A DNA stretch of 64,000 nt from Rhizophlyctis rosea. Lineage: Eukaryota; Chytridiomycota; Chytridiomycetes; Rhizophlyctidales; Rhizophlyctidaceae. Position numbers and translations under genes: made by a program. This document shows positions 6,636 to 22,400 of this stretch, one piece after another. Position 1 is the first letter of the stretch. Every line of letters starts with the position of its first letter. The stretch is from positions 1-64,000 of the forward strand of contig JADGJC010000133.1 of the NCBI GenBank assembly GCA_027596075.1. The letters are read 5' to 3'. Below the pieces are notes generated by a model, which did not search any database, had not been told where the DNA came from, and saw nothing but the letters and a program-made list of their open reading frames with translations.

Positions 6636-9531
6636 TCAATCCGTTGCCCTCGGCTCACATTCCAAACTCATTTGTGTCAGTTTGTTGATGTTCAGCTCCA
6701 ACGGCGGATTTGTTAGGTATTCCTGCATGTCAGGATCAAAATTCCAAAACTTGTATTCCAAACTCGCCAATGCCGTGATCCCCCGCACACACTCCCCCAT
6801 TAGCCGGAGTTTATCGAAATTGATCATTCCTTGGATTATTGACTCGTTGCCGTCGTTCATGAATGTTAGGTCTTTGATGAATATGGCTAAGCATGGAAAG
6901 GAATTGATTGTCATAAGAAACAGAAACGCAAATGGACAAAGATCGCCAGTCAAACTTACGTAAAAATGGAATCATTGGAGGTTTTGCGTTTTCCAGACGG
7001 TCACGATAGTTTTTGAAGTTTCTGGAGACATCGGTTACTTGCTCCAATTCGGTCATCGTTTTCTTTTTGGCATCTGATAAAGCCTAATGATTTGAAATGA
7101 AAAGATAATGAGTATAGTGGGCACCACGTCAGATCATTGGTTGCACTGCCTCGGAAGGTCCCAGCACATATCATCCTCAAAACGCCAGTATCGAAGTACA
7201 TTGAAGCAGTAAGCTTCCAGTTCCACACGCCAATGAATTTTGCACAATTGGTTTGCTCACCTCCCATGTCTTTTTCAGTCGTTGTACCGGTGTCAAATTG
7301 AAACCGGACATTATTGCAAAAACGCTGAAGAAGTTTTGATACTCTAACGATTGCTGACAATAGCAAAAACCATGAGTTCTTCGCAAAAGAGTGCTCATTG
7401 AAACAGTGCAAACAACTCACCCTCGCTACGCCAATAAACTTCTTGATCATTTGCACCCTTGCTTTTAGATCTTTTCGACTGCATATTTCCGTCGCCACCC
7501 AGTAGCTTTCTTTATCATACCGTTGGATGAAGAATGTCAAGGAAGGACTCGGCTTCTTCCAGATCATATTTAGGAAATCGATGGGCGGGATATGACGAAA
7601 TAGCATGGAGTTGTATAAACAAAGCTGTTGAGCAAGTTTCTCTTCATCAACGTCGGCGGTTAGAAGTGACTCGGTGGGCGTGCGAGGGATCAGATTGGAG
7701 GGATCCATTAAGGTTGCCATTTGATCCTGACGACTTTTATATTTTCGAGACTGGGCAAGGGGAATGTAAGCTTGACAAGTCCACCCAACAGCGGCGGCCA
7801 GACATCCTCCATTATAAACAGGTTAAAAACACAATAAAAGCTCCTACACCTACCACTTTCTCAATAGTGCGCTCCAACTCCGTCGCCTGTTCCACGTAAT
7901 TGGCCCGGCGGATTTGATCTAGGAACTTCTCCAAAGATTCTCGTAGAGTAATATCATCATTGAAATCATTCCATTTAAACTCTATCCACAAATGTAGTAG
8001 GGTTATGACATTCTGCTGGTCCTGACCCCGAGTCATTGCGTATTCGCGAATTTGATCTGGTGTCGGATGTTTGGGCAGTTGACGGTTGAACTTTCCTTGC
8101 AGCCAAGTGAGGAAAGCGGGAGGTTGAAGGAAGGATCGGAAGGTAAGAAGGAACGTTCTTTGAAAAGCAACCCCGCCGCCTGTACATGGAGATAAGTTCT
8201 TCATTCGATTGCTGTCGATTGAATCACCTTATTGTACCTTTCCGGGGATCCAGCACTGCCTCCAATATTTGATCTGAGGTTCCTGCCACCACAGTACCGG
8301 ATCTGCACCCATAACATGCTGTTCATTATTCTACCCATCATTAAATGATACATTTGGCAAATCAAGCTTACCGCAGGACTAAGCATGGTTTTCCATCCTT
8401 CTCAATGACTGTATCTGGCGGAGGGATTGGGCTCGCCAAATCTAACCCTTGGACCGTCGATGCACTGGGAGCACTATTTGACGAATCCTTCCGTGAAGCA
8501 GGAGCAACGGACGCCCTCCTTGCAATCAGCGTATCCTCCACCATTTGTCGATGCTCCTGCGTGGTCAAATACTTTCCAAAGATCGCCTGAATTGTCCCAG
8601 GTGTCAGCGGCTTGGCCAAGACCTCGTTCATGCCCGCGTTTACGTATTTCTCCTTCTGCTCCTGTGATGCGTTATCTGTGATGGCAATGATGGGGACAAG
8701 GCGATTTTCTGCGAGGATACGTGATCCAATGCTCTCAGGTGTGTCATGTCCCCCGTCCCGTTGCAACGTCGGTGTTCGGGATCGTGGTCTTGGGCCGGAA
8801 ATACTGCTGGCGCGACGTCGGCCCATTTGAGGTTGTCGACTTAGTGTGAGGGGTAGGGAGATTAAGGAGTCGTTCACTGGGCCCGTTGACGTGATTGTTC
8901 CATCTGGACTGCCAGGTGTAGGTGACGACTTGCGACCAAGGGTTGATATTGTTGACATGTTACGTGATATGGTGGCCGAGTCTAACGCCAGTTGTGATAG
9001 TAGTGTGTCTTCATCTTTGTATCCACGGATGAGCTTGGTTGCTTCCCAACCGTTTAGGATAGGCATTTCTGCAAATCAATTGGTCAAGTCCCTTTGCAAC
9101 TCCCAATATCATCCGGAGCAACATACGTATATCCATCATGATTATATCGTATCGCTTGACCTCCAACGCGTGCAATAGCGAAAGTCCGTCTCCGTAAATG
9201 TCATCTGGTCATACAAATATTGCAGTCAGTGGCAGACTTCTCCTTCCGTATGGATGGCATGTGCACACCTTCTGTGACATTAACTCCGAAAAATTTCTTC
9301 AGTGATTTCTGTACGGGTCGTCAATACGCAAATCTGACTCCAATGCTCAACACCATGCCTACAGTTGTAATCTTCTGTACGACTTGATTATCATCCTGTT
9401 GAAGGATTCCTTGTTAGCGGACTGCAGGTTGGGCGTGGTGCGGCGAATGACTTGCTCACCACAATCGCTACTCTAAACTCTCGAAAGTCCCCCTGAGTTG
9501 GTGACGTCTCCTTCTTAGCAAATATGCTCAT
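6636..9531 (-). CDS. Receiver domain-RasGEF fusion protein
   Basis: Eleven exons (minus): 9531-9460, 9395-9363, 9308-9269, 9204-9127, 9068-8372, 8302-8238, 8179-7854, 7726-7421, 7353-7261, 7083-6960, 6886-6636; 694 aa, all phases consistent, stop TGA. Residues about 19-235 form a two-component receiver (REC) domain. The acidic pair is in VAIVDDN (D25, D26), the phosphoacceptor D73 is in IIMMDIQMP, the conserved Thr205 is in IAITDNA and Lys227 is in LAKP. All catalytic residues are therefore present. About 100 Ser/Pro/Arg-rich residues (about 96-195) are inserted between the MP-containing loop and the late strands. Residues about 309-437 are a RasGEF N-terminal domain (FQRTFLLTFRSF). Residues about 450-660 are the CDC25-type catalytic domain (SYWVATEI, MSGFNLTPVQRLKKTWE, IPFLPIFIKDLTF, INFDKLR). 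Inference: a phosphorelay controls Ras activation directly. No histidine kinase or HPt gene lies in the window. Confidence 0.9.
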
Positions 9532-10317
9532 GCTCGCAGCGTGTCAGGAAGGCGTTTCAATACTCTCAGAATCGGGGGCAAGACAGCGATGTCGATAAAT
9601 TCAAGTCTGCGGTGTGCGGACCGACATTAAAAATTTGCAGGTGGAAAACCATTCACAGAAATCATCACCTCTGGTCCAGATGTTATGATTCAACCCACGC
9701 TTTGCATCGCCTCCGCCATTCTTTGAGCTCTTGGTTGGTAAGTTTGGAAAGCACCGCGTACTTGGGACAGCAGCAACCGGCATTAGGGGCACACTTTCGG
9801 CGGGAATCAGGGTCGATCAGGGATCATCGGTAATCTGTCTATGTTTGCGCTGGGACGCAACCAAGTCTATAGGAAAGACGGCGCTTCCAAAATGGAAATA
9901 ATGCATGCCTTACGTCAGACTGCGGATCAATTGTTGGCAATGAAAAATATTTGTAATAATAATTTGTGCGGCAGATGGTTGCAAACTGGTGCTGGACCCT
10001 GGCTGACGTAATGCATGCCAAGGGCCCAAGACTCCAGTTCATCCCGCGTCATTTCGTTCCAAGAAATCAAGTACACCAAACAACGATGGCAAGAGCCAGC
10101 CAAGCACTGACTTATTGGGAGCGCCGTCTTTACCGGCATCTATTCCATACTATAGACAACAGAACAATAGACTTGGTTGCGTCCCAGCGCAAACATAGAC
10201 ATTCGGTTTGACCAAGAAGATTACCCCAAGCGACATTTCTTTCATAGATGTAGGATGATCCTGGCACTCTGAACCGTGCTGCCAGCATGCGATACCATAT
10301 GTAGGAAATACAACCAA
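9532..10317. other. Upstream region of the REC-RasGEF gene
   Basis: This lies between the REC-RasGEF start and the 3' end of the pepsin-like gene, both on the minus strand. No ORF is supported. Nearly half of it is the inverted-repeat element described separately. Confidence 0.5.
9836..10201. mobile_element. 366-bp terminal-inverted-repeat element (MITE-like)
   Basis: The ends 9836-9870 and 10167-10201 are perfect 35-bp reverse complements, starting TGTCTATGTTTGCGCTGGGA at the left. Inside are further inverted pairs: AAAGACGGCGCT at 9874-9885 against its complement at 10120-10131, and TTACGTCAG near 9910 against CTGACGTAA near 10003, next to an ATGCATG palindrome on both sides. This looks like a longer foldback partly eroded by indels. 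There is no coding capacity. I see no clean target-site duplication. It lies about 305 bp upstream of the REC-RasGEF start codon. Confidence 0.7.
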
Positions 10318-19492: not shown

Positions 19493-22400
19493 TCAATCAT
19501 CCCCAATAACAAACACAACCCCATCCTTCCTAACCTTTCTAAGCAACCTAGTATCAAGCGACACATTCTCATCACCATCCTCCACCTCTTCATCACAATC
19601 CTCTTCATCTCCAACATGACTTCCCTCTCCATCCGACAACACGTCCTCACCTTCCTCCGGCGGCACACCAGGCGGCACGTCCAAACTCTCCTCTAAAGGC
19701 TTTACACCTCTCGTCTCTCTCACAAACTCCAAAAATTCGTTGGAGGAATCCAGGGTTGAGAATACTAGGTCCCAGTAGTCGGCCGGTTGGGATGAGGAGG
19801 GCGAGTCTTGTGGTGGGGCGGTGGCAGAGAGTGGGCTGGTAATGGGTATATCTGGCTGTGCGTGTGGGATCTCTGCTGATGGTGCGTCCGGTGTGGAGGT
19901 TGAAGATGGACCGTCTGGTTCGGCCTGTGGCTGGTCTGTTGGTATTTCATTGGAGGATACCTCTCCCTCCGCCTTCGCTCCCTCCCCACCCGCACTTGCT
20001 CCACCGCCTCCTGCCTTATCCTCCCCCTGCCCCTTCTTCTTTCCATCCGAAAACGTAACCCTAACCCACCAACTCCAACCCCCAGCATTCCCCACACCCA
20101 ACCCCAACAAATCACCTCCACCACCACTTCTCCCCCTCCCACCCCTTATCCTCCCCACAACCCCATTCTGCACTAACCCACCAACCCCATTCGCACATCC
20201 AAACCTCCAAGTCTTCCACCTCTCACATTTGACAACATCCCCCACCCTCCCAACACCAACCACGCCCGTGAACTCCCCAACAACATCGCTTACAAGGCCC
20301 TTGCCCCCATACCGCTCACTCATCCCCGGTACAACCGAATCAATGCACGCATTGACGGACGGAGAAGCCAGACTCTCCGGTGGAAACAACACCGGAGGCC
20401 ACACATCCAACCGTTCAACAACAAGATAAATATACGTCTTCGTGGCGATGACCGTCACCGGCCGCACCGTCAAATTCGACGTATCCACTGCCGCCCTCGA
20501 CGATGATGACAACGACGACGACGACGCACGAGGTACAATCCATCCCGCCAAAAGGTACGTCCTCACGAAATTGAAGTCCACCTTGGATACCACCACATCG
20601 TCCCCAACCGCCGGATCCTCTTCATCCTCCCCCAGCATATCCATACCCATACCATACCCCCGCACAACCTCCTTCCCCGTCGCCTTCCCTCCCAACAACC
20701 TTCCAATCCACCCTCCCAAGCCGCCTCCCCCGCCCTCCCCAATCGTTCCACCCGCATGATGTCGAGCTTTCGGCCCCTGTCTAACCAAAACTCTATCCCG
20801 AATCGCCCTAACGCACCACTCCACATCCTGGTTAATAATCCTCACCTTCCCGCCTTCGCCCTTAAATCTCGCAAACCTTCCGCCGTCCGCCTCACCCCTC
20901 TCATAAATCACCTCCGTAACACTGTCAATAAACTTCGTCGTCGTCGTCTTATCCCTAATCAACACCACCAAACTGACCACCTCCCCCGCTACTCCCCCCT
21001 CTCCTCCCACCAACCCACCTCCACTGCCACCGCCCTTCCCTTCCTCCCCACCCACTTTCCCAATACCCCCCACAGCCCCCGGATGAATGCCCCCAGCCGC
21101 ACCCTTGACCCCACCACCTCCCACCACCTTCTCCTTCAAAAAATGCACCCCAAGATACTGCCGATGAAACCCAACATCGACTCTCGCCAACATTTCCAAC
21201 CTAACCTTATGTACAAGCCTCAACACCTTCCCCGGATCCTCATCATACCTCACCATGTCCCTAACACCATCATACGCCCCCTCCACACTCAAATACTGAC
21301 CGTCTCCCCTCCCCCTCCCCGACCCACCTCGCGCAGACGTACCCGCCGCGGCACCCGAATACGAGAAGAAATAGATCCCCCAATCCGTCAAAAGCATCCA
21401 AACCATCCTCTCAACCGGCTCCACGCTCCTCAACACACTTCCCACATCCCCCATCCCCCCACCACCAACCTTCCCCGCCCGTCTCGAAAACCATTCCCCA
21501 AACGTCCCCCGTGACGAGCTGATATCCCCAACAAACGCCGGAAGTTGCGGGACATAACTCCCCGCGCACCAACACATGACGCGTTCCTCGTCTTTCAATA
21601 TTCGCGTTTTAAGAAAGAGAAGAAGGTTGTTGGTCATTTCTCTAAAAGGGATCGTCGGTGCACGGGGTACGGGCATCGTCCTTCCACTCCCACCACCAGG
21701 TCGTGAGCTACCAGCCTCACTACTCAGGTTATCCCCATTCATATCCCGGTACCGGAGATACGCTGCGCCTTTTCCTCGGCTCCTATACCCGCTCGCACTA
21801 TACGTCGAATAGCTAACTGTGTAACTCTTGCTCGCGTTGGAACTTCCCTCACCAGCTTCTGAGTTTGTGCGCGAGCGGGTGTAGGATGTGGCGCTGTTGA
21901 CGGGGCGGGAGAGGATGAGGGGTGGCGTGCCTTGTGTCGGTACGGTGGAAGATAGATTGTGGGATGGAGGAGATCCGGGAGCGAAAACTAATGGAGGGAG
22001 AGGGCGTACAATCGTACGTGCGGGTGGTGATATACCAGTGAACTCTTTCGAAGTTCCGCCCGAGACGTCAGGGCCTGATGATGTGCGGCGTTGCAGAGGA
22101 GAAGGGCGGGCGGTCGCATCTTTCGGTTTGGTGTCTGAACTTCCCACTCGAGGCAGTTGGGGCGATGTACCCGACCTACCACCGAGACCGCTCCCAGGCT
22201 TTCGCAGATCTCCCACACTCGAAGACTGAGTTGACTTGATTCCGGTCCTAGACCCGGCGTCCGAGGACGAGGCACGAAACCCATAGTCATAAATGCGGCG
22301 GTATGGACCAATGTGAGTGATGTGCCCCACATTAGGAGGTGCGGGCAATCGACCAGATGTTGTGGGCGCACTGGTGGTACTCAAGGCCGGACTAGCCGGT

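Follow-up and report, generated by a model that had tools for sequence, protein, structure and literature searches.

The locus considered here raises the question of whether a phosphorelay receiver (REC) domain and a Ras exchange factor are encoded in a chytrid as one protein, and what such a protein may do. In the textbook picture, the outputs of fungal phosphorelays are MAP-kinase cascades, transcription or kinases, and Ras exchange factors respond to nutrients or receptors. With a receiver built into the exchange factor itself, sensing kinases could control Ras or Rap activity in a single step, and the bacterial-style phosphate relay and Ras switching, two signalling systems that are normally separate, would be linked. 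The organisms that carry the protein are fungi with motile zoospores; Rhizophlyctis rosea, from which the window (the whole stretch of 64,000 nucleotides that was analysed) is taken, is a soil chytrid.

Gene structure and domain composition

The gene occupies positions 6636..9531 of the minus strand, where eleven exons splice into one open frame of 2109 nt, encoding 702 amino acids and a stop codon. All ten introns follow the GT...AG rule and are 54–177 nt in length. The deposited R. rosea protein of this gene (P0001, HDV00_001673) is identical to residues 72–702 of the spliced frame. Since translation of this model starts only at M72, it omits the early part of the receiver, including the acid pair (9531-9204). 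The splicing of exons 1–4 is backed by relatives, above all by P0002, the REC core of which shows 91% identity across 110 columns.

Exon 1 (9460..9531, residues 1–24) contains the start codon and REC strand β1, and the N-terminus of P0002 is similar. By splicing and inspection of residues, exon 2 (9363..9395, residues 25–35) carries the acid pair D25 and D26, and exon 4 (9127..9204, residues 49–74) the phosphoacceptor D73; exon 3 (9269..9308, residues 36–48), placed by splicing, lies between them. Exon 5 (8372..9068, residues 75–306), delimited by splicing and Pfam, starts just past D73, spans the second half of the receiver with T205 and K227, an insert and the linker, and ends with GKPCLVL at the edge of RasGEF_N. 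The RasGEF_N domain, placed by Pfam and splicing, starts in exon 6 (8238..8302), which continues with RSGTVVAGT, and the remainder lies in exon 7 (7854..8179). The catalytic RasGEF domain starts in exon 8 (7421..7750), continues through exons 9 (7261..7353) and 10 (6960..7083), both placed by splicing and by intron positions common to a paralogue described below, and ends in exon 11 (6636..6886), which by Pfam and splicing also contains the C-terminus and the stop codon. The first-pass annotation had described a single gene with consistent splicing, which agrees with the one frame, the ten regular introns and the like joining of P0001 and of relatives. Its exons also stand, with the exception of exon 8, where its start at 7726 dropped eight residues; the correct acceptor, at 7750, adds SRKYKSRQ, which is present in P0001, and relatives align through these residues.

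That two neighbouring genes have been wrongly joined is scarcely credible. Nine other database proteins from five genera are joined identically, and the deposited model is joined too. The single exon 5 reaches from just past D73 to the edge of RasGEF_N, and both P0001 and P0002 read through the same joint between exons 5 and 6. A misjoin of two adjoining genes is rejected on these nine proteins together with the joined deposited model.

Two further features of the window are recorded here. A stretch of 366 bases at 9836-10201, lying some 300 bases upstream of the gene's start codon, has perfect inverted ends of 35 bases and resembles a small element of transposon type; a search of the R. rosea assembly found no second copy. 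The block at 20001-22000 has a GC skew of -0.458 at a GC content of 0.569, the most marked strand asymmetry among the 32 blocks of the window.

A Pfam scan, performed with a 694-residue version of the protein without the eight extra residues of exon 8 and up to an E-value of 0.01, gave matches to Response_reg (2.2e-16, best stretch 21–92), RasGEF_N (1.3e-14) and RasGEF (3.3e-58, profile positions 2–181 of 181), and to no family beyond these three. With most of the insert deleted, the receiver gives a single match to profile positions 1–108 of 111 (9e-19). The protein therefore belongs to PF00072 by profile match and by carrying all of the active-site residues (acid pair, phosphoacceptor D, S/T and K), and its output is a CDC25-type RasGEF (PF00617) accompanied by RasGEF_N (PF00618), with a complete catalytic domain and the REM domain. 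It had been claimed from a first reading that the receiver has all of its phosphorylation residues and is joined to RasGEF-N and CDC25-type RasGEF domains; D25, D26, D73, T205 and K227 are each present in the R. rosea protein and conserved in relatives, and the Pfam matches bear out the output domains. Within the same scan (E up to 0.01) neither HisKA nor HATPase was found, which rejects a hybrid histidine kinase; there was no HSF-type DNA-binding match, which rejects Skn7, and PF02196 was absent, which rejects an exchange factor with Ras-binding domains (RBD-RasGEF).

The insert lies between α3 and β4 of the receiver (residues 91–195; 8707..9021), consists of 105 residues, and carries the sequence RRRASSI. 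Its limits were placed by alignment of relatives, and the matching stretch 94–171 of the relative P0003 is of low confidence in the structural model. This AlphaFold2 model of P0003, obtained from an input alignment of 11 proteins of which 3 are without REC, is of moderate quality (mean pLDDT 65.7, pTM 0.62). It shows the strands and helices of a receiver, the low-confidence insert and a GEF part that is almost wholly helical; it yields no readable interface between REC and GEF. With this model as the Foldseek query, the best 50 of 824 matches were all chains of SOS, Epac2 or Cdc25.

Distribution and conservation of the family

With the whole protein as query, 43 matches were obtained, of which 7 contain both REC and RasGEF. 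A second search, scored on the GEF part, yielded 86 matches, and 10 of these, all from named chytrids, contain both PF00072 and PF00617; since this count includes P0001, the product of the gene described here, nine are further proteins. Two are from R. rosea (P0001 and P0002), one is from Thoreauomyces humboldtii (P0003), four are from Geranomyces variabilis (P0004, P0006, P0007 and P0044), and G. michiganensis (P0005), Fimicolochytrium jonesii (P0045) and Gaertneriomyces sp. JEL0708 (P0049) contribute one each. The NCBI taxonomy places Rhizophlyctis in the Rhizophlyctidales and Geranomyces, Fimicolochytrium and Gaertneriomyces in the Spizellomycetales. Because the build recurs in nine other deposited proteins, spread over five genera of chytrids, REC-RasGEF is a small family. 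It was not found in Spizellomyces punctatus, Powellomyces or Gaertneriomyces semiglobifer among the 86 matches of the GEF-part search. In an alignment-based search P0049 was the only protein with both domains among the best 120 of 158 matches, a list drawn from a capped set of candidates that is without the other known members and says little on absence elsewhere. Stretches are missing, replaced or added in P0006, P0007 and P0044 of G. variabilis and in P0002, relative to P0004 or to the window protein, and are probably errors of the splice models.

The receiver site is preserved throughout. Phosphoacceptor D, S/T and K are each present in all ten proteins compared (10/10), namely the window protein and its nine relatives, and the acid pair is kept in 8/8 of the models containing that part, the remaining two of the ten having another N-terminus or none. 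Members are only 38–41% identical overall to P0049, yet these active-site residues are kept. The residue three before the conserved K, which we take from CheY to be the position of the aromatic switch residue in many bacterial regulators, is V or I in 10/10 members. A Skn7-like REC of the R. rosea genome likewise has I at this position.

A second conserved feature is found in the insert, where R-x-R-[AS]-x-[ST]-[IV] occurs in 10/10 members, with a per-sequence shuffle chance of 0.0024–0.0056 for a motif that was defined after viewing the alignment, in ten sequences that are related and not independent. The looser RxRxx[ST] is also present in the insert in 10/10 (shuffle chance 0.086–0.257). 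The stricter motif resembles what we presume, from the consensus, to be a basophilic-kinase site, and its conservation suggests a second, kinase-driven input to REC-RasGEF.

The first-pass annotation knew of no described fungal protein of this build. No published description of the fusion was found in the open-licence full-text literature, the longer listings being covered in part, nor in the available parts of PMC4758236, PMC2566311, PMC9981736, PMC7332107, PMC10933043, PMC2246266 and PMC6733946, and to that extent the claim stands. The build is not, however, a one-off: proteins with it were already in databases as uncharacterised entries, one UniRef entry being named 'Response regulatory domain-co...'. 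The receiver-RasGEF proteins thus apparently constitute a conserved, undescribed family and a new output type within response regulators.

Origin of the two halves

The GEF half has relatives in the RBD-RasGEF family of chytrids. RBD domains (PF02196) are present in 40/86 matches of the GEF-part search, and RBD and REC occur together in 0/86. In a tree of 52 rows built on RasGEF_N and RasGEF, from which 40 of 92 rows (long-branched, near-identical or from dense groups, including the REC-GEFs P0001, P0007 and P0044) had been omitted, the eight REC-GEFs form a single clade (8/8 rows, support 100/100). Most of the remaining rows are exchange factors of chytrids. The clade sits within an open fork from which four blastocladiomycete rows are separate; P0082, labelled as a blastocladiomycete outgroup, fell inside this fork, and its label is probably wrong. 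A quick tree of all 92 rows also needs one change only, with a support of 91 for the REC-GEF clade; the 70 other near relatives together make up its neighbouring group there. Constraining the REC-GEFs to group with RBD-GEFs from the same two orders carries a cost of 6.13 log units (AU p 0.09).

R. rosea itself contains an RBD-RasGEF on contig C221, on which both of the RBD pieces found lie. Introns 8, 9 and 10 of the REC-RasGEF gene are at the same residue and in the same phase as in this paralogue (3/3 compared), the common positions being VA[KR]| and KTWE|, both of phase 0, and L|P ahead of the KDL block, of phase 1; these splice sites were read by eye, and the comparison covers introns 8–10 of the REC-RasGEF gene. 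The shared introns fit a duplication of the GEF with a swap of its N-terminal end. The direction of change would then be from a duplicate of RBD-RasGEF type to REC-GEF by N-terminal exchange.

Receivers split by a long insert were also seen in stand-alone regulators of R. rosea, on contigs C234 (L058, 2044-3915), C274 (L059) and C174 (L060, two loci). These insert-bearing regulators are apparently a small family in the genome, and in two of the three regulators taken into the tree described next the insert measures 119 and 101 residues. The REC tree has 33 rows, comprising 7 REC-GEFs, three of the four stand-alone loci with an insert (C174 is represented by one of its two), 4 receivers of bacterial hybrid kinases and 19 other pieces from the R. 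rosea genome; the latter were drawn from 42 REC matches, and the tree has no Ssk1 row. The REC-GEFs again form a single clade (7/7 rows, support 99/93), and the group nearest to them (98/94) is that of the three stand-alone regulators from C234, C174 and C274. This grouping indicates that the receiver half was probably derived from the stand-alone family together with its insert. As the REC-GEFs are one clade on both the GEF and the REC tree, one fusion event explains all members, and several independent fusions are not needed.

Predicted function and comparison with known systems

Profile searches of the R. rosea genome at E 0.001 gave at least 42 REC matches (50 of 64 candidates scored), 28 HisKA, 1 HPt, 68 Ras-superfamily and 32 RasGEF matches, all being exon-level counts of which a few are below the family cut-off. 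Separate HSF and REC pieces were seen near each other on contig C96. The sole HPt frame detected, which we take to be Ypd1-like, reads HFLKGSSAALGL and is the likely phosphate donor to REC-RasGEF. With HisKA, HPt and Ras-superfamily pieces, the kinds of partner needed for the mechanism proposed here are present.

In our view REC-RasGEF is probably a response regulator that is fed by a phosphorelay and has as its output a guanine nucleotide exchange factor of the Ras-family type. Hybrid histidine kinases would pass phosphate via the HPt protein to D73. The phosphorylated receiver, located N-terminal to RasGEF_N and the catalytic domain, could then act on the catalytic domain by way of access to it, its placement or its assembly, and thereby raise or lower the rate of GTP loading of a GTPase of Ras or Rap type. 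The layout would be Epac-like, with REC in place of the cyclic-nucleotide-binding input. Counted for this reading are the shared gene model, the intact REC site, the complete RasGEF, the build conserved in five chytrid genera, the trees needing one fusion, and the HisKA, HPt and Ras-superfamily pieces in the same genome. Counted against it are the V/I found at the switch position in all ten members and the model of P0003, which is of only moderate quality and has no readable REC-GEF interface. V/I three before K is a point against classical receiver switching, but I occupies that position in the Skn7-like REC of the genome too.

The rival that comes closest to the preferred reading concerns the target, which has a substantial though somewhat less than even chance of being a Rap/Rsr1-type GTPase rather than Ras proper; the protein would then act in polarity or adhesion, not in a pathway of Ras-cAMP type. 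The top sequence match among solved structures is the catalytic region of Epac2 (8.6e-39), ahead of Cdc25 (1e-32), and 'Rap guanine nucleotide exchange factor' is among the deposited names of relatives (P0044, P0059, P0062), but the best fold matches are to SOS1, with SOS2, Epac2 and Cdc25 also among the best 50 of 824, and further relatives are deposited as 'Son of sevenless homolog' or as 'Ras protein-specific guanine nucleotide-releasing factor'. Neither the sequence and fold matches nor the deposited names decide between Ras and Rap specificity.

Two other rivals concern the receiver. It is unlikely, though conceivable, that REC sets the location or partners of the GEF, by recruitment, dimerisation or stability, while other inputs, for instance phosphorylation of the insert by a kinase, control catalysis; the basophilic-kinase-like motif in the insert of every member would suit such an arrangement, but the retention of the REC active-site residues suggests that phospho-signalling matters, though not for what. 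More doubtful still is a phosphate sink or vestigial receiver attached to a constitutive GEF, for which the absence of the aromatic switch residue could be cited and against which stands the conservation of the active site among members so divergent overall. A phosphorelay coupled to the activation of a Ras-family GTPase is the best, though inferred, reading of REC-RasGEF. The fuller proposal, that a His-Asp phosphorelay directly controls Ras-family GTP loading within one polypeptide, as a phospho-aspartate counterpart of Epac with an additional basophilic-kinase input in the REC insert, and that this eukaryotic regulator class, hitherto undescribed, arose once in an ancestor of the Rhizophlyctidales and Spizellomycetales, we hold to be evenly balanced. 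REC-RasGEF is a compact module, the input of which could be fixed by BeF3 or by a single aspartate change.

Among known systems the closest in sequence are the chytrid RBD-RasGEFs (e.g. SPPG_03749 of Spizellomyces punctatus), in which the RasGEF part is 45–61% identical to the window protein over the aligned region. In these proteins, which have no REC, the GEF is preceded by RBD domains; the window protein has REC and no RBD. In Epac, a cAMP-gated Rap GEF, a cAMP-binding domain lies N-terminal to RasGEF_N and the CDC25 domain. Epac, the best PDB sequence match, thus resembles REC-RasGEF in having its regulatory input N-terminal to these domains, but this input is a cyclic-nucleotide-binding domain and not a phospho-receiver. 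The receivers of Ssk1, Skn7 and Rim15-type regulators similarly contain the acid pair, D, T and K, and are fed by an HPt protein; their outputs are a MAP-kinase cascade, HSF-type DNA binding and a protein kinase, respectively, and we know of no GEF output among them. The match of the REC-RasGEF protein to a PDB chain of Ssk1 is weak (1.2e-4).

A eukaryotic REC fused to cAMP phosphodiesterase is found in Dictyostelium RegA and in RegA-like proteins of Physarum, and the account given there of the Physarum regulators lists leucine-rich repeats and phosphodiesterase as extra domains, with RasGEF mentioned only in proteins of GbpC/GbpD type (PMC4758236). RegA is similar to REC-RasGEF in that a receiver is joined to an enzyme feeding another signalling world, with phosphodiesterase as the output instead. 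A functional parallel is provided by RomR/RomX of Myxococcus, which is however bacterial, consists of two proteins and, to our knowledge, is without a CDC25-type GEF domain. RomR is a receiver-domain protein (PMC6785124), and the complex of RomR and RomX has GEF activity on the Ras-like GTPase MglA (PMC7332107).
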